This document shows, piece by piece, positions 349 through 14,537 of a stretch of 64,000 bases of DNA. Position 1 is the stretch's first letter, and every line of letters begins with the position of its first letter. Source of the stretch: Singulisphaera sp. GP187 (GTDB lineage Bacteria > Planctomycetota > Phycisphaerae > Phycisphaerales > SM1A02); NCBI GenBank assembly GCA_945871915.1, contig CAMBXO010000005.1:62001-126000 (forward strand), in the 5' to 3' direction. Under the pieces are notes generated by a model. That model searched no databases. It was given only the letters and a program-made list of their open reading frames with translations, and was not told where the DNA came from. A program made the position numbers and the translations under genes.

Positions 349-1605
349 ATGGCTTCGTTTCGAAATAAGTACGCACTCATGGCGGTGGCAGGGATTGGCT
401 TGGTCGCCTGGCTTGCCTTCGACTATCTGATCGTGAATCGTGACCCGATCGTTGTCGGGATTCTTCACTCACAAACCGGTCCCATGGCGGTCAGCGAGAG
501 TTCGATGATCGACGCTGAGGTGCTTGCGCTCGAGCAAGTCAACGCATCCGGTGGGCTCCTCGGTCGGAAGGTCGAGTGGTTGATTGCCGACGGCGCATCC
601 GATTGGCCTCGCTTTGCCGAGCAGGCCCAACACCTCATTGTCGATGAACAAGTCTGTGTGGTCTTTGGGTGCTGGACCAGTGCAAGCCGCAAGAGCGTGC
701 TACCAGTCTTTGAGAAACTCGATCACCTTTTGATTTATCCGATGGCCTACGAGGGCCTAGAGCAATCTGACCACGTCATCTATACGGGGGCGGCGCCGAA
801 TCAGCAGATCACGCCCGCGGTGCAATGGTGCAACGAAAAACTTGGCGCCAAGCGATTCTTCCTGATTGGTTCTGATTACATCTGGCCTCACTGTGTCAAT
901 GCAATCATTAGCGATCAGCTTGCTGGACTTGGTGCCCAGCGTGTGGGTGAGTTGTATGTGCCATTTGGCAGTACCGACTTGGCGGCAGCGGCCCGCGCGA
1001 TTGCGGCGGCCAAGCCGGATGTCGTACTGAGCAGTGTGGTGGGTGATTCAGCACTGGCACTTGCAAAGGAACTTCGCAAGGCCGGGATCCGTCTCGACCA
1101 GACGCCCGTGCTGACCTTCGCGCTCGCTGAAGATGAACTTCGATCGATTTCGCGTGAGGACATCGTGGGGACCTATGCCGCATGGAATTATTTCCAGAGC
1201 ATCGATCGACCTGAAAATAGGGAATTCGTTCGCGCGTTTAAAGAAAGATATGGTCAAGACCGATCCGTCTCAGATGTGATGAGCACCGCGTACAACAGTG
1301 TGATGCTGTGGGCGCAAGCGGTGCGAGAGTCGGGGACGACTGATGTGCAGCAGGTTCGATATGCCATTCGACATCAAAGTCTCAATGCACCGGAGGGCAT
1401 CATTGCCGTTGACCCGGCCACGCAGCACACCTGGCGGCCCGTTTCCATTGGGCGAATTCGACACGATGGGCAGTTCGACATTGTGTGGACCAGCAAGACC
1501 GCCGTGCGACCTGTTCCATTTCCGATGACACGAACGCGGAAGCAGTGGGAGGAATTCGTGAACGATCTCTACCAAGGATGGGGCGGAAAGTGGGCGGCAC
1601 CATGA
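349..1605 (+). CDS. UrtA-like urea/amide-type periplasmic substrate-binding protein, membrane-tethered
   Basis: 418 residues. Residues about 7-29 form one hydrophobic helix without a clear cleavage or lipobox site, so the protein is probably anchored in the inner membrane facing the periplasm. The rest has the type I periplasmic-binding fold of the urea/short-chain amide family (UrtA, FmdD, AmiC): VVGILHSQTGPMA near the start, VFGCWTSASRKSVLPV, LLIYPMAYEGLE, and FFLIGSDYIWPHCVNAI. No permease or ATPase gene accompanies it. Instead its TGA overlaps the ATG of a chemoreceptor-like gene (ATGA), so the likely role is ligand sensing, with the binding protein presenting a small amide or amino-acid-like ligand to the receptor. 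The family is clear; the ligand is inferred only from family. Confidence 0.85.
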   Translation: MASFRNKYALMAVAGIGLVAWLAFDYLIVNRDPIVVGILHSQTGPMAVSESSMIDAEVLALEQVNASGGLLGRKVEWLIADGASDWPRFAEQAQHLIVDEQVCVVFGCWTSASRKSVLPVFEKLDHLLIYPMAYEGLEQSDHVIYTGAAPNQQITPAVQWCNEKLGAKRFFLIGSDYIWPHCVNAIISDQLAGLGAQRVGELYVPFGSTDLAAAARAIAAAKPDVVLSSVVGDSALALAKELRKAGIRLDQTPVLTFALAEDELRSISREDIVGTYAAWNYFQSIDRPENREFVRAFKERYGQDRSVSDVMSTAYNSVMLWAQAVRESGTTDVQQVRYAIRHQSLNAPEGIIAVDPATQHTWRPVSIGRIRHDGQFDIVWTSKTAVRPVPFPMTRTRKQWEEFVNDLYQGWGGKWAAP

Positions 1606-3605
1606 GTCCCGACATGCCCGCTGCGCACGCAAAGTTTGGAGTCCGTCGCTCGATCGCCGGTCGTCTTCTGCTTTGGTTCCTCGTTATCTCGCTTGTTCCC
1701 TGTGCTGTGCTGACAACGATTACAGCCCGTAGTGCGTCCCATGCTCGAGAGGAGGCGGTGCGAAACAACCTCATTCAACTGGCGGCTGAACGATCCAACG
1801 AACTTGAAACCTATGCGGTGGAGCGGATCGCAGACGCAACCATGCTTGCAACGGGTCCCATTGTCATCAGTGGCATGAAGGCCATCCTCTCGGGGGACCC
1901 CGCGCGGGCGGCTGAGGCCACGGCGAGTATCGGCGACATCGCCGCCAGGTTTGGCTACCTTGAATTTCTGCTGCTCGATGCGGCCGGAACGATTCGCTAC
2001 TCACTCACTCCAGAGTTCAAAGTGTCGGCCTCGGTGCTCGCCGCTCCTCTGTCGACCACCGAACTTGCAAGTGGATGCCTTCGATCGAAGGCTTTACTCC
2101 AGACCGATCTGACCGCGTTTCAAACTTATACCGATCCGAAGGCACCGATTGCATTTGTGACCAGTCCGATCCTTGCTGATGGACGCGTCATCGGCGTTTT
2201 AGCCGCTGGAATTGGAGCAGAGAGAGTTTGGCATGTGCTGTCGAACATGAGCGGGCTGGGTGAAACCGGCGAGATTGTGGTGGGTGAGCAACTTGGCGAC
2301 AGCGTGCGCATCACGGCGCCACTTCGGCATTCAATGGATGCGGCGTTCCAAATGAAGATTCCCCTCGGTGGGGGTGCCGGTCGCGGCTCTCAACTTGCCG
2401 CAAGCGGACAGCGGGGTGATGGCGTGGTTCAGGATTACCGAGGCAATGAAGTCGTCGCCGCGTGGTGCTACTTGCCAAGTTATCGATGGGGCATGAATGT
2501 GAAACAAGATTCCAGCGAGGCCTTTGCCGAGATTCGCAATCAACGCCAGACGATTCTCTGGCTGTCACTTGCAACGGTGCTCGGCGTGGCGTTGACAGCG
2601 ATGGTGGTTGCGAGAAGCATTTCCCGTCCGCTGCAAACGGCGGTTGCGGTTGCTCGGCAAGTCGCCGGCGGAGATCTTCGCGCCACCGTCGGCGAGCATT
2701 CCAACGATGAAACTGGTTCACTGCTCGACGCGATTCAGACCATGACCAACGACTTACGTGGTTTGATTTCGCGCATTCAAGGTTCATCGGTGACCTTGGA
2801 TGGAATTGCATCCGCCATCCAGGCAACCAGCGCCCAACAACAGCGGGTTGTTGCAGACCTTGGAGGCACGACCAGCGATGCGGTCTCAGCGGTTACAGAG
2901 ATCACAGCAACCAGCGAAGAACTCTCGCGGACCATGGCCGAAGTGAACACCCTTGCGGCGAAGTCCGGCGAGAAGGCAGTGGAAGGCCGCAAAGATCTCG
3001 CAGGGATGGACGCCACGATGCGCACTCTTGACGCCAGCACGGCATCGATTAGCGGAAAGTTGGCCAAGATCAGCGAGCGAGCGGCGAGCATTACCAGCGT
3101 GATCACGACTGTGGTCAAGGTTGCGGATCAGACCAATCTTCTTTCGATCAATGCTGCGCTCGAAGCGGAGAAGGCGGGCGAGCACGGGCTGGGATTTCGC
3201 GTGGTGGCTCGCGAGATCACGCGACTTGCGGATCAGACTGCCGAGGCATCGCTTGACATTGAACGGATGGTGAAGGAGATGCAGAAGAGCGTGACCGCAG
3301 GGGTGAAGGAAATGAGCGACTTCTCAGATCATGTCAGCGGGGGCGTTCGCGAAATTGGTGTGGTCTCGGAAAAGCTCGGCGAGATCATCACGTCGGTCCA
3401 AGCGATTTCAGCCAGGTTCGGCAGTGTCGCTCAAGGAATGGAAGCGCAGACGCAGGGCGCGCAGCAGATTCGGTCGGCCATGTCCCGGCTCTCTGACGGA
3501 GCCAGCCGCACTGCAGGTGCCGTGGACGAATCCAATAAGGCCACGGTCGAACTGCGTGCATCGGTCAGTGAACTCAAGAATGAGGTCTCACGGTTTACCG
3601 TGTGA
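1602..3605 (+). CDS. Methyl-accepting chemotaxis protein, WspA-like
   Basis: 667 residues. The start at 1602 overlaps the preceding stop as ATGA; an open frame extends further upstream but lies inside the previous gene. Order: cytoplasmic N-terminus, TM1 about 20-42, a roughly 270-residue periplasmic sensor region (probably Cache-like), TM2 about 316-335, HAMP about 336-390 (ending near GEHSNDETGSLLDAI), then the coiled-coil signalling domain. The hairpin tip (about 506-545) reads VADQTNLLSINAALEAEKAG followed by GFRVVAREITRLADQTAEAS. The EAEKAG and LADQTA forms resemble WspA and other alternative-cellular-function receptors more than flagellar ones. The protein would control a CheA-type kinase; no CheA, CheW, CheR, CheB or WspR gene is in the window. 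Its partner is probably the UrtA-like protein encoded just upstream. Confidence 0.88.
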   Translation: MSPDMPAAHAKFGVRRSIAGRLLLWFLVISLVPCAVLTTITARSASHAREEAVRNNLIQLAAERSNELETYAVERIADATMLATGPIVISGMKAILSGDPARAAEATASIGDIAARFGYLEFLLLDAAGTIRYSLTPEFKVSASVLAAPLSTTELASGCLRSKALLQTDLTAFQTYTDPKAPIAFVTSPILADGRVIGVLAAGIGAERVWHVLSNMSGLGETGEIVVGEQLGDSVRITAPLRHSMDAAFQMKIPLGGGAGRGSQLAASGQRGDGVVQDYRGNEVVAAWCYLPSYRWGMNVKQDSSEAFAEIRNQRQTILWLSLATVLGVALTAMVVARSISRPLQTAVAVARQVAGGDLRATVGEHSNDETGSLLDAIQTMTNDLRGLISRIQGSSVTLDGIASAIQATSAQQQRVVADLGGTTSDAVSAVTEITATSEELSRTMAEVNTLAAKSGEKAVEGRKDLAGMDATMRTLDASTASISGKLAKISERAASITSVITTVVKVADQTNLLSINAALEAEKAGEHGLGFRVVAREITRLADQTAEASLDIERMVKEMQKSVTAGVKEMSDFSDHVSGGVREIGVVSEKLGEIITSVQAISARFGSVAQGMEAQTQGAQQIRSAMSRLSDGASRTAGAVDESNKATVELRASVSELKNEVSRFTV

Positions 3606-3717: not shown

Positions 3718-3791
3718 CGGGGCGTAGCTCAGTTTGGTAGAGCGCTTGGTTCGGGACCAAGAGGCCGCAGGTTCAAATCCTGTCGCCCCGA
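3718..3791 (+). tRNA. tRNA-Pro (anticodon CGG)
   Basis: Complete cloverleaf. Acceptor CGGGGCG (3718-3724) pairs perfectly with CGCCCCG (3784-3790), discriminator A. D arm GCTC...GAGC. Anticodon stem CTTGG/CCAAG around loop TTCGGGA, which places CGG at 3752-3754 and reads CCG proline codons. T arm GCAGG-TTCAAAT-CCTGT. CCA is not encoded. The DNA just downstream holds decayed gene fragments, so this tRNA may once have been an integration site. Confidence 0.97.
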
Positions 3792-11179: not shown

Positions 11180-11965
11180 ATGAAGATCTCTCGATTCCAG
11201 TTGCTGCTCACCGTTGTGTTGACCATGTCCAGTGCGGCTGCGGTGTATGCCGGTGGGGAGGTTGGCCTTCTCGATGCCATGACGCAAAAGAGTGCGGTTG
11301 GATCGCATGAGCGACTTGGCAGCAGTTTCGATCAATTCACCCACCCGTGGTTCCTGATGCGGTTGGTGATCGGTTTGGTGCTCAGCATTGTGCTGTCGCT
11401 GGTTCTGGCCGTCCATCCGCGGCGAAGTACCCGCTTGGATCCGTTGAGTGATCTGGAAGAACGCAAGACGCTGATTCTGCTTGGCATGGTGGGAGCGGTG
11501 GTTGCGGAACTGGTCACCGTTGATAGCACGATGGCGCTGGTCATCTTTGGTATTGGCGGATTGATCCGCTTTCGCACGGTTCTTCGAAACCCCAAGATCA
11601 CCGGCAAGGCCATTCTGGTGGTGCTGATTGGTTTGGCGTGCGGACTGGGCGAATTTGCGACGGCGATTTTTGTCACCGCGTTTTCTTGGGGTCTGATTGT
11701 GTGGCTCGACAGTCATCTGAGTGCGAGAATAAAAATCCGGGTGCACCCCAAGGTAGATCTTGCGGAAGCCCATTCCATTGTGCTGAACTATTTTCATACG
11801 CACAGTTGCCGAGTGAAAGCCATCAATAAGGTTGAGGCCAAGCATCAGATCACCGCGTTGGTTTACATTGCAACCAACGCAGACCCCAAAGCCATGGAGG
11901 CGGAGATCAAGGCCGCGTTGCCTCGCGCAGGCGAGGGGTGCGAAGTGGAAATTGAGGTCGAGTGA
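11180..11965 (+). CDS. DUF4956-like multi-pass membrane protein
   Basis: 261 residues. A signal-like N-terminus (about 1-25) is followed by helices near 55-75, 95-115, 117-128 and 145-170. The core LVIFGIGGLIRFRTVLRNPK followed by ITGKAILVVLIGLACGLG resembles DUF4956 proteins, which carry an IRFRT motif between helices and often accompany VTC-like polyphosphate polymerases; MgtC-like proteins are another possibility. A soluble C-terminal domain (about 175-261) is compatible with a small regulatory fold. No polyphosphate polymerase gene is nearby. Its stop overlaps the GTG start of the ABC ATPase gene (GTGA), which makes it the first gene of a five-gene operon. Function unknown. Confidence 0.7.
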   Translation: MKISRFQLLLTVVLTMSSAAAVYAGGEVGLLDAMTQKSAVGSHERLGSSFDQFTHPWFLMRLVIGLVLSIVLSLVLAVHPRRSTRLDPLSDLEERKTLILLGMVGAVVAELVTVDSTMALVIFGIGGLIRFRTVLRNPKITGKAILVVLIGLACGLGEFATAIFVTAFSWGLIVWLDSHLSARIKIRVHPKVDLAEAHSIVLNYFHTHSCRVKAINKVEAKHQITALVYIATNADPKAMEAEIKAALPRAGEGCEVEIEVE

Positions 11966-12783
11966 TCCCTGCGATCGGTGCTCCGACGGCTGCGGGTGGT
12001 GACGCATCCATGCCGCGTGGGCTTGGCATTCGGGCGAAAAATGCGTGCGTTTGCTTTGGTGATGTGGTGGCCTTACGCCATGCGTCACTGACCATTCTGC
12101 CGGGCGAATTCATTTCTATTGTCGGGGATTCTGGTGGAGGCAAGACCACGCTTCTGCGCGCGATCGGTGGATTGCGTGCGCTGAGTTCAGGTTCAATCGA
12201 ATTTCATAGTGCCTCGGGAGCGAATTGGATTCCAGGACCACGCGATATCGGTTTCTGTTTTCAGGAGGGACGGCTGCTTCCGTGGCGAAGTGTGTTGGCC
12301 AATGTTGCGTTGCCTTTGGAACTTGAGGGCGTTGCCAGTGGTGAGCGATTGGACGCGGCGAGAGCCATGCTGGAGCGCATGCGCATGGGTGGCGTGGAGC
12401 GACGCATGCCCTCGCAACTTTCTGGCGGCATGCGAATGCGTGTGGCGATGGCTCGCGCGCTGGTCACGCGGCCCCGCGTGCTGTTACTGGATGAACCCTT
12501 TGGTTCGCTTGATGAAGTCACGCGGCTTGCCCTAGAAGATGAATTGCTTTCTTTGGTGCGAGAGAGCGGCGCGACCGCCATTCTGGTCACCCACGCGATT
12601 GGGGAAGCGGTTGTGCTTTCCGATCGCGTAGCGGTTTTGCGGGGCCGCCCCGGATCTTTGCAGCCTGCGATTCCTATTTCGCTTCCAAGCCGTGACGACG
12701 AGGGTCGCTTAAGTGTGGAGTTCGCAAGTCTGTGCGCAATCGTGCAACACGAATTGCGTGGTTCGCAGGAGAGCAGCGTATGA
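11962..12783 (+). CDS. ABC transporter ATPase of the nitrate/taurine/HMP-importer type
   Basis: 273 residues from a GTG that overlaps the preceding stop; ATG at 12010 is an alternative and would remove 16 residues outside the domain. Walker A GDSGGGKTTLLRAIGG, Q-loop FCFQEGRLLPWRSVLANVAL, signature LSGGMRMRVAMARAL, Walker B VLLLDEPFGSLDE and the switch histidine in VTHAIGEAV are all present. Q-loop and signature match the SsuB/TauB/ThiZ group that energises import of nitrate, sulfonates or pyrimidine precursors. It is coupled to the permease by an ATGA overlap. The substrate follows from the binding protein at 13566. Confidence 0.92.
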   Translation: MIPAIGAPTAAGGDASMPRGLGIRAKNACVCFGDVVALRHASLTILPGEFISIVGDSGGGKTTLLRAIGGLRALSSGSIEFHSASGANWIPGPRDIGFCFQEGRLLPWRSVLANVALPLELEGVASGERLDAARAMLERMRMGGVERRMPSQLSGGMRMRVAMARALVTRPRVLLLDEPFGSLDEVTRLALEDELLSLVRESGATAILVTHAIGEAVVLSDRVAVLRGRPGSLQPAIPISLPSRDDEGRLSVEFASLCAIVQHELRGSQESSV

Positions 12784-13562
12784 AGCGAACACTCACCACC
12801 ATGCTGCCGCCAGTGCTGGTGCTGGTGGCATTGCTCACGGCGTGGCAAATTGGCGTTCAGGTGTGGAACCTGCCGCGCTACCTGCTGCCATCGCCGTGGT
12901 TAATTCTGTGCAGCGCTTGGCAGGAGCAATCGAGATTGTTGGCAGGAATGTTGCAGACCGCCATGGCTGCAGTGGGTGGATTTGGGCTTGCGGTGTTCAT
13001 TGGCGTGGTCACCGGAAGTTTGTTGGGCGCGAGCCAGCGATTGCAAAAAGGTTTCTATCCAATCGCTCTCCTGTTGCAAATGGTGCCGCTTGTCGCCATC
13101 GCGCCATTGCTGGTGATCTGGCTTGGCTATGGACTTCGCAGCACCATGGCTGCGGCATGCATCGTGGCCATTTTTCCGGTGCTGGCTAGCACGCTCGATG
13201 GCATGCGAGGCACCGATCCTGGGCTTCGCGAGATCTTTGCCATTCACCACGCCGGAAGATTGGCACGGTGGTGGAAACTGGAATTGCCGGGAAGTCTTCC
13301 CTCCATCGTGACCGGGTGCCGAGTGGCCGCAGGGCTTGCGGTCATTGGTGCGGTGGTGGGAGAATTTGTCTCCGGGTATGCGGGCGATCAGGCACCGCTT
13401 GGCATTGTGATCGTGTCCAGCATGCGAGAGGCACGAACCGATCTGGTCTTTGCCGCGGTGGGATTGTCGGCGTGTGTTGGATTCCTTTTATTCGGTATCG
13501 TCAGTGGTCTTGGCTGGTTGCTGTTACGAAGGTGGCACGCCAGCGCCGTACAGGAGAATTGA
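12780..13562 (+). CDS. ABC transporter permease (SsuC/TauC/ThiX type)
   Basis: 260 residues; ATG at 12780 overlaps the TGA of the ATPase gene. About six membrane helices, starting with LPPVLVLVALLTAWQIGVQV. The cytoplasmic coupling loop reads EIFAIHHAGRLARWWKLELP followed by GSLPSIVTGCRVAAGLAVIG, matching the EAA motif of binding-protein-dependent permeases. GEFVSGYAGDQAPLGIVIV resembles the loop of the nitrate/sulfonate/thiamine-precursor family. It forms the membrane channel, probably as a homodimer with the ATPase. Confidence 0.9.
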   Translation: MKRTLTTMLPPVLVLVALLTAWQIGVQVWNLPRYLLPSPWLILCSAWQEQSRLLAGMLQTAMAAVGGFGLAVFIGVVTGSLLGASQRLQKGFYPIALLLQMVPLVAIAPLLVIWLGYGLRSTMAAACIVAIFPVLASTLDGMRGTDPGLREIFAIHHAGRLARWWKLELPGSLPSIVTGCRVAAGLAVIGAVVGEFVSGYAGDQAPLGIVIVSSMREARTDLVFAAVGLSACVGFLLFGIVSGLGWLLLRRWHASAVQEN

Positions 13563-13565
13563 ATC

Positions 13566-14537
13566 ATGAAACCCATTCGATGGATTTTGGCTCTGGTGAC
13601 ATGTCTGATGGTGGCCACGTGCAACGACCCAACTTCCGCACCGGGGCTCGTGCAGATCCGTTTGCAACTTAATTGGGTTCCTGAACCTGAGTTTGGCGGC
13701 ATCTACGCCGCAGAATTTGATGGACTTTTTCGCGAGGCGGGTCTTGAAGTCGAAATCATTAAGGATCCGGGCGGCGCCGCCGTGCAACAAATGATCGCGC
13801 AAGGTGTCTGCGATGCCGGCATTGTGAGCGGCGACCAACTCTTGCAGTTTCGAGAACAGGGTGGAGATCTGGTGGCCATCTACAGCGTGTTTGATCACAC
13901 TCCCTATGGAATCATGGTGCACGCCGCGGGTGCGCCGGAAACGCTGAAGGAAGTCTGGCAGGGCACGGGGATCTTGGCGATTGAATCTGGGTTACCCATT
14001 TGGAAATTTGTCGATGCCACCTATGGAGCCTCAACACGCAAACAGGTTCCCTATGGAGGCGCCATCGCTCAATTCCTTAGCGATCCAACACTGGCGCAGC
14101 AATGTTTCGTGACCAGTGAGCCGCCGCTGATGGACATTCAAAAAGTTCCGGTGAAAGTTTTTTCGGTTAGCGATATCGGCTTTGATCCCTACAGCGCGGT
14201 GGTGGCCATTCGGCGAGATGGCATGAAACCCGAAGTGCAAAAGAAATTTGTCGAAGCCATGCAGAAAGGCTGGCAGCGATACATGGCAAACCCCGCTCAA
14301 TACAACCCTCGCATCGCGGCGTTGAATCCAGCCATGGCTGTTGAAGCCATGAATCTGGGTGCCAAGCGCATGCAACCTTTGTTGCTTACGCCGTGGACGG
14401 CCGAGCACGGCATGGGCAGCATGAATCCCGCACGGTGGCAGGCCATGATCGATGTGCTGCACTCGGCCGGGGTCATCAAGACTCGCCCGGATCCGGCCGT
14501 GCTGATGCAGTGGCCGCTGGCATCAACGAAACCGTGA
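13566..14537 (+). CDS. NMT1/THI5-like substrate-binding protein (pyrimidine or riboflavin precursor type)
   Basis: 323 residues. The N-terminus (IRWILALVTCLMVATC) is a signal peptide; the Cys may be lipidated although Thr before it is unusual. The mature part opens with IRLQLNWVPEPEFGGIYAAE and FDGLFREAGLEVEIIKDPGG, the hallmark of ThiY-type binding proteins for hydroxymethylpyrimidine precursors; RibY riboflavin-binding proteins share it. It starts three bases after the permease stop. With the two preceding genes it forms a complete importer. No TPP or FMN riboswitch was recognised upstream of the operon, so the substrate stays an inference. Its TGA shares one base with the ATG of the methyltransferase gene. 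Confidence 0.87.
   Translation: MKPIRWILALVTCLMVATCNDPTSAPGLVQIRLQLNWVPEPEFGGIYAAEFDGLFREAGLEVEIIKDPGGAAVQQMIAQGVCDAGIVSGDQLLQFREQGGDLVAIYSVFDHTPYGIMVHAAGAPETLKEVWQGTGILAIESGLPIWKFVDATYGASTRKQVPYGGAIAQFLSDPTLAQQCFVTSEPPLMDIQKVPVKVFSVSDIGFDPYSAVVAIRRDGMKPEVQKKFVEAMQKGWQRYMANPAQYNPRIAALNPAMAVEAMNLGAKRMQPLLLTPWTAEHGMGSMNPARWQAMIDVLHSAGVIKTRPDPAVLMQWPLASTKP

Follow-up and report, generated by a model that had tools for sequence, protein, structure and literature searches.

The window analyzed here is a stretch of 64,000 nucleotides from the planctomycete Singulisphaera sp. GP187 (GTDB lineage Planctomycetota; Phycisphaerae; Phycisphaerales; SM1A02; assembly GCA_945871915.1, contig CAMBXO010000005.1, positions 62,001 to 126,000 of the forward strand). 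Near its start, a gene for a solute-binding protein (SBP) of the UrtA/AmiC family (349–1605) runs by an ATGA overlap into a gene for a methyl-accepting chemotaxis protein (MCP; 1602–3605), as a sequence-only reading of this DNA had described. That reading took the two products for a two-part sensor, and the co-occurrence of the genes, their contact and the sensory clade to which the SBP belongs support it in so far as this is a conserved sensory pair and not a transport component. The features of the pair, all on the forward strand, are the following:

349..1605, +, sensory UrtA/AmiC-family SBP, 418 aa (PF13433, TIGR03407, AlphaFold2 (AF2) model and Foldseek)
352..432, +, hydrophobic N-terminal helix, SBP residues 2–28, putative membrane tether (AF2 helix; no AxA cleavage motif or lipobox seen by eye)
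745..747, +, Ala133, corresponding to Gln144 of P. marinus UrtA, which binds urea (pocket alignment)
883..885, +, Trp179 where UrtA has pocket residue Phe192 (pocket alignment)
1039..1041, +, Val231, corresponding to Asn246 of P. marinus UrtA, which binds urea; also Val in AmiC (pocket alignment)
1120..1122, +, Ala258 where UrtA has pocket residue Ser274 (pocket alignment)
1519..1602, +, C-terminal extension, SBP residues 391–418, with a helix at 397–410 (AF2 and alignment)
1602..1605, +, ATGA start/stop overlap of the SBP and MCP genes (sequence)
1602..3605, +, dCache-HAMP-MCP receptor, 667 aa (open reading frame and Pfam domains)
1728..2537, +, periplasmic dCache domain, about MCP residues 43–312 (AF2 and Foldseek)
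2604..2759, +, HAMP domain, MCP residues 335–386 (Pfam)
2952..3494, +, MCP signalling domain, residues 451–631 (PF00015, E 8.8e-30)

A binding protein and a chemoreceptor encoded by overlapping genes

The SBP is a member of Peripla_BP_5 (PF13433; E 5.3e-149), and its AF2 model (mean predicted local distance difference test, pLDDT, 91.5) finds 8tg1 as its top Foldseek match, followed by UrtAs and AmiC; in these alignments it is 42–48% identical to the UrtAs (8tg1, 7s6e, 7s6f, 8hic) and 31–32% identical to AmiC. With 470 bits, it does not reach the curated cut-off of the UrtA model TIGR03407 (492.75 bits). Nor is it encoded with UrtBCDE: by eye, no urea-type permease gene was seen in 18 kb around the pair, and the only matches to BPD_transp_2 (UrtB/UrtC-type) in the window's genome lie on contig C17, beside an SBP of their own that is 25% identical to the window SBP, so that no UrtBCDE set elsewhere was found to use it.

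The hydrophobic N-terminal stretch is kept in the orthologues of the SBP, while the transport-type UrtA of genome G044 has, by eye, an ordinary signal ending in AQA. The SBP of G302 and the second of two SBPs in G417 look lipoprotein-like instead (by eye), and tethering, rather than the helix itself, may therefore be what relatives keep. The earlier description of the SBP as membrane-tethered thus stands as regards a hydrophobic helix and a cleavage site that the eye does not find; the tether itself is putative. At the other end of the protein, tail residues R395, W400, W411 and W415 are invariant across 14 aligned sequences. We considered this tail as a dCache-docking element and dropped the idea, since SBPs fused to Ser/Thr protein kinases (STPK) have the same tail.

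In the receptor, the AF2 model of residues 34–313 (pLDDT 93.8) matches the ligand-binding domains of Mlp24, PctA/B and McpH (E ~1e-9), identifying a double Cache domain by fold; the dCache_1 Pfam score is weak (38.1 bits, cut-off 45).

The pair and its junction are conserved

Among the 16 genomes of the genus, that of the window included, the SBP is present at about 70% identity or more in nine and absent in seven. An orthologous MCP is encoded by the same nine (50–62% identity; a fragment in G015), and the other seven have lower-identity signalling-domain matches only, or none; the two genes are thus kept or missing together. Several of these genomes are only 73–83% complete, and in G002 and G011 the pair or the MCP is interrupted by assembly breaks. 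The pair further occurs in G031, G030 and G407, which belong to other genera of the family.

At all 19 distinct SBP-MCP junctions examined, the genes lie within 25 bases of each other. With start codons picked by inspection, a four-base NTGA overlap is possible at 14 of them, namely in the window, at eight further junctions of the genus and G031, in G030 (GTGA), in G407, between the second SBP and the MCP of G417, and at loci L135 and L143. The remainder comprises a one-base TAATG overlap in L134 and L136, an eight-base overlap in L137, and gaps of 1 base in L141 and 22 bases in L142. As the genomes are related, these counts of pairs and junctions do not represent independent events. The SBP gene is thus dedicated to a receptor gene that it adjoins and with which it is kept, one of the features expected of an SBP-dependent transmembrane receptor.

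A Wsp-ordered chemosensory cluster with a putative phosphatase output

The genome of the window encodes three MCPs and a single CheA. (One MCP gene is seemingly split between contig ends, at G000:C4:6-995 and C11:1-162, G000 being the window's genome.) The lone CheA lies in a cluster on contig C1 that has no MCP gene of its own and consists of HD-GYP (REC-GAF-HD), CheW, CheR, CheW, CheA/REC, CheB and REC-SpoIIE(PP2C). CheW-CheR-CheW-CheA/REC-CheB reproduces the order of wspA–F, minus the MCP; the diguanylate cyclase output of WspR is replaced by REC-SpoIIE/PP2C. By similarity, the same order recurs in five further genus genomes (L079–L083), and in G031 (L078) and G030 (L085) an MCP gene precedes CheW; all seven of these clusters end in REC-PP2C. 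Locus L084, in G044, holds a cluster of another kind.

The sequence-only reading had also assigned the receptor to the cyclic di-GMP (c-di-GMP) type of Wsp system. We reject such an output through WspR for the C1 cluster, which ends in REC-PP2C and not in GGDEF; the three GGDEF genes of the genome all lie away from it. A c-di-GMP link by way of the HD-GYP gene upstream of the cluster and these three GGDEF genes is possible.

The other half of that claim, that the receptor is of Wsp rather than flagellar type, is supported: none of the 16 genus genomes has a flagellin match, and by gene order the pair stands before CheW-CheR-CheW-CheA in G417, L134 and L142. The genome of the window nevertheless has an FHIPEP gene of about 630 bits (G000:C1:228884-230833) in a genus without a flagellin match. 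The best FHIPEP matches of the genus score 534–641 bits, compared with 716–863 bits in each other genome of the family or order that has one, and because of these lower scores the genus genes may belong to a non-flagellar export system.

Pair and cluster are linked in some relatives

In G417, from another family of the phylum, SBP1-SBP2-MCP-CheW-CheR-CheW-CheA/REC-CheB-REC-PP2C follow in a row, with one opposite-strand open reading frame between CheA and CheB; SBP1 is 61% identical to the window SBP. Among the 8 MCP-type loci of a scan of named genomes, the order SBP-MCP-CheW-CheR-CheW-CheA continues to the end of the fetched stretch in L134, from a metagenome-assembled genome (MAG) labelled Planctomicrobium piriforme, and in L142 (Tautonia sociabilis GM2012), and in L143 CheW follows the MCP at a contig end. 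L141, from a MAG labelled Gammaproteobacteria, reads SBP-MCP-CheR-CheB-REC-PP2C, with CheA and CheW not found there; MAG taxon labels are given as deposited and may be wrong. No Che genes were found in L133 (13.2 kb), and the short contigs L135, L136 and L137 gave no match to them. Linkage of pair and cluster is real, not universal.

A sensory clade of UrtA-like proteins

UrtA-like proteins (E 1e-60 or better) are encoded by 41 of 392 genomes of the phylum, and the neighbours, read for part of these, are of both transport and sensory types. The partner is a dCache-HAMP-MCP in G417 and G407 and a dCache-HAMP-histidine kinase (HK) in G138, G302, G405 and G289. In other genomes, the SBP is fused to the C-terminus of an STPK (domains confirmed in G315 and G207, members of the same family being alike by open reading frame) or to an HK (domains confirmed in G338). 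All four scanned MCP partners fall below the dCache_1 cut-off of 45 (38.1, 44.8, 38.9 and 38.1), whereas three of four scanned HK partners lie above it (66.4, 52.1 and 69.2) and one below (41.1); one dCache type is common to the MCP and the separate HK partners. Directly upstream of the SBP-HK pairs of G138 and G302 (L120, L122), a porin-like gene was seen by eye.

In a scan of named genomes, partners at the best 80 loci were assigned with custom-built hidden Markov models (HMMs). UrtB lies downstream at 41 of these loci, an MCP with dCache at 8, an HK with dCache at 13 and a dCache with other or unseen output at 3 (dCache-other); three SBPs are STPK-fused, six HK-fused, and six loci are of unknown type. 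At none of the 8 MCP loci is there a UrtB match within 4.2 kb downstream. The tail pattern W[GNDES], up to two residues, W is found in 8/8 MCP, 10/13 HK, 3/3 STPK and 1/3 dCache-other loci, as compared with 0/6 HK-fused, 1/6 unknown and 1/41 UrtB loci. The STPK fusion forms one polypeptide in L127 (3099–5498) and L128 (4690–7107), both Pfam-confirmed, and the same fusion was detected with a custom kinase HMM in L146, L149 and L175.

A quick tree of the core columns (73 rows; SH-aLRT support only) places 40 sensory rows on one side of a branch and 28 others, that is, the UrtB rows and six HK-fused cyanobacterial rows, on the opposite side, with support of 98. The tree left out the misframed row L128_g, the long branches L130_g, L039_g and L119_SBP2, every second of the 41 UrtB loci, and L133, L143 and L162 (duplicates or fragment). 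The six rows with no or unknown partner stand outside this split, except L145, which was placed with the sensory rows for its tail, and the HK label of L121 (G368) is a guess, its dCache reading frame stopping early and a PAS-kinase frame lying further on. Among the sensory rows, the output label switches no fewer than 7 times, a count that includes unseen outputs (dCache-other and unknown). Judged by this tree, the HK-fused cyanobacterial SBPs are outside the sensory clade, sensory though they are by architecture. In six of these cyanobacterial proteins (L152, L155, L156, L164, L166, L182), the SBP is N-terminal to the kinase, with no visible signal peptide and a full urea-type pocket; they are possible urea-sensing kinases.

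The ligand pocket of the window's branch is altered

The pocket of P. marinus UrtA is described as comprising nine residues (W120, S122, Y141, Q144, E146, Y190, F192, N246 and S274), and mutating S122, Q144, Y190 or N246 is stated to decrease or abolish urea binding (PMC10392092). Mapping the nine positions onto an alignment of 77 SBPs, we determined that the pocket of the window SBP reads WSYAEYWVA: five residues are kept (W109, S111, Y130, E135 and Y177) and four are changed (Q to A, F to W, N to V and S to A). The urea pocket WSYQEY[FY]NS is found in 22/22 UrtB, 15/16 HK, 9/9 HK-fused, 3/3 dCache-other, 6/6 unknown and 4/5 STPK rows, the fifth STPK row (L128) being misframed in the alignment. 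The pocket of the window is shared by 8 of the other 15 MCP rows, and four more are altered (YSYAEYWVA, WSYAEYWVG, WSYAEYWAS and the second SBP of G417). The one deviating HK row, L138 (WSYAEYWVS), sits in the same tree branch as the altered MCP rows.

Because four of the nine urea-pocket residues are replaced, urea is an unlikely ligand of the window SBP. As the equivalents of Q144 and N246 are Ala and Val, we rejected it as the most likely one. The Gln and Asn side chains hold one amino group of urea, and the substitutions suggest that Ala and Val leave room there for a non-polar group; in AmiC (1pea), Pro aligns with the Gln and Val with the Asn. An amide-like compound of lower polarity appears more likely as the ligand. 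Urea or amide catabolism was also considered as the context of the pair and rejected, since none of the 16 genus genomes gave a match to urease alpha or to FmdA, in a search that did not extend to other amidase families. In G044, a urease gene shares a contig with the transport-type UrtA (C7:91615 and C7:102095).

By its sequence, then, the window SBP is not an UrtA: three features that define one, namely the cut-off score, linkage to UrtBCDE and the urea pocket, are all lacking, and 'urea ABC transporter substrate-binding protein' would be a misleading annotation for its branch. More broadly, we regard as evenly poised the proposal that the sensory SBPs form a previously unrecognised clade of the UrtA/AmiC type (found in records with labels such as Cyanobacteria and Proteobacteria as well as in Planctomycetota) and serve as a portable input module, membrane-tethered and usually with a Trp-rich tail, that was repeatedly joined to dCache-MCPs in Wsp-ordered PP2C arrays, to dCache-HKs or, by fusion, to STPKs, with the pocket in the window's branch rebuilt for a new, non-urea ligand.

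Surroundings of the pair in the window

A tRNA-Pro gene (cgg; 3718–3791) lies about 110 bases past the MCP stop codon. The window pair's own neighbours have no match to the neighbours in relatives. A conserved block extending beyond the pair was therefore rejected: relatives share several neighbours among themselves, and no block is common to all.

The earlier statement that no transporter gene is present holds for urea-type permeases within the 18 kb inspected. It does not hold for ABC transporters of another type, one of which (ATPase, permease and a substrate-binding protein of a different type; by eye) is encoded at 11962–14537, 8 kb downstream of the pair. On contig C17 of the window's genome (21.9 kb), the fetched stretches L028/L034 and L086/L087 are exact reverse complements around the midpoint, and the doubled LIV-type permease and SBP genes found there are therefore probably an assembly artefact.

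Proposed mechanism and alternatives

We consider it probable, at roughly 0.7, that the pair constitutes a two-part periplasmic sensor, in which a tethered SBP and a dCache MCP act on the only CheA of the genome, with REC-PP2C as the output. The SBP would be made together with its receptor through translational coupling and would stay tethered to the inner membrane. A small ligand, probably not urea, would close the anchored SBP, and the closed form would dock on the dCache domain of the MCP. The receptor would then alter the activity of CheA in the Wsp-ordered cluster elsewhere in the genome, and CheA would phosphorylate the REC-PP2C phosphatase, which may act on a partner switch or another phosphoprotein rather than on a flagellum.

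Several observations weigh against this sensor. The pair is dispensable, being missing from seven of the 16 genus genomes, and Che genes near it were found neither in the window's genus nor in G030 (19.9 kb) or G407 (11 kb), the pair contig of G031 being too short to judge. In L134 and L142, the REC-PP2C homologue was not found beside the cluster, and the best homologues lie on stretches without Che genes. Three of the 16 MCP-paired SBP rows (L039, L124 and L142) retain the urea pocket, and therefore one ligand cannot fit all. The STPK-fused SBPs have the same tail with no dCache seen, and the tail is thus not simply a dCache-docking element. Finally, direct ligand binding is usual for dCache domains, which means that the receptor may receive an independent input. 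An arrangement in which the dCache domain itself has a ligand, with the SBP as modulator or as second input, accords with the closest solved folds (Mlp24, PctA, PctB and McpH), all directly ligand-binding dCache domains. It is, in our view, unlikely, given that SBP and MCP co-occur, that their genes are almost universally in contact, and that, whether the output is an MCP or an HK, the SBP is accompanied by one dCache type, which tracks it; the distances of SBP and dCache correlate with r 0.85 (30 pairs) or 0.76 (25 pairs, near relatives removed), a correlation that is confounded by shared descent.

We think it distinctly improbable that the pair is a urea sensor: five of the nine pocket residues are kept and the best fold matches of the SBP are urea-binding proteins, but the residues critical for urea, Q144 and N246 in the numbering of PMC10392092, are kept in 22/22 transport UrtA rows and are Ala and Val here, and the genus genomes lack urease alpha and FmdA matches. 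We hold it very unlikely that the SBP is a transport component for an unlinked permease, such as the LIV-type permeases on C17 or the other ABC transporter of the window (11962–14537; by eye), since the C17 permeases have an adjacent SBP of their own, and the window SBP has a putative anchor without visible cleavage site and the tail of the sensory clade, and the 8 MCP loci of the named-genome scan have no UrtB match within 4.2 kb downstream. Equally remote is a flagellar chemotaxis receptor served by an SBP as Tar is by MBP; an MCP domain and an FHIPEP/FlhA match are present, but flagellin has no match in 16/16 genus genomes, the FHIPEP scores of the genus are low (534–641 compared with 716–863 bits) and may mark a non-flagellar export gene, and the sole CheA cluster ends in a PP2C output. 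On balance, the tethered two-part sensor remains our preferred explanation.

Significance and comparison with known systems

The inputs of many non-flagellar chemosensory arrays have yet to be identified, and a dedicated SBP offers a direct handle on the ligand, just as a single SBP clade with interchangeable outputs allows docking to be tested by natural swaps. T. sociabilis, a named strain in which the pair directly precedes a Wsp-ordered cluster, may be open to experiment. In the open-licence literature, judged by title and abstract, we found no report of an UrtA/AmiC-type SBP dedicated to an MCP or encoded before a Wsp-ordered PP2C cluster.

The window SBP shares family and fold with UrtA, and differs from it in its score below the cut-off, the lack of an adjacent UrtB/C-type permease in the region viewed, its putative anchor, its C-terminal tail and the four changes among nine pocket residues. 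AmiC, the amide sensor of Pseudomonas aeruginosa (1pea/1qo0), has the same fold, is likewise sensory rather than a transport protein, and shares the absence of the Gln and the Val substituted for the Asn. The target of AmiC is AmiR, in the cytosol (PDB 1qo0 is the complex of the two), whereas the window SBP is putatively membrane-anchored and is paired with an MCP.

The Wsp gene order is given as wspABCDEFR in PMC8552884, which, by its own criteria, places Wsp only in beta- and gammaproteobacteria. Our cluster resembles it in the order MCP-CheW-CheR-CheW-CheA/REC-CheB-response regulator, a likeness drawn from gene order alone; here, REC-PP2C replaces the GGDEF output and an SBP is added. The array in the window's genome is Wsp-like by order, not Wsp by output.

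According to PMC9602780, which sets out the general mechanism, chemoreceptors, kinases, cyclases and Ser/Thr kinases can all be stimulated by SBPs loaded with ligand; its main text contains no occurrence of Peripla_BP_5. In MBP-Tar and BctC-BctE, too, an SBP acts on a transmembrane receptor. What sets the present case apart is that the SBP gene is dedicated, contacts the receptor gene and goes with a Wsp-ordered array. LuxP-LuxQ and NspS-MbaA are further receptors stimulated by SBPs, and by analogy the window pair may work in the same way as these known SBP-receptor pairs.

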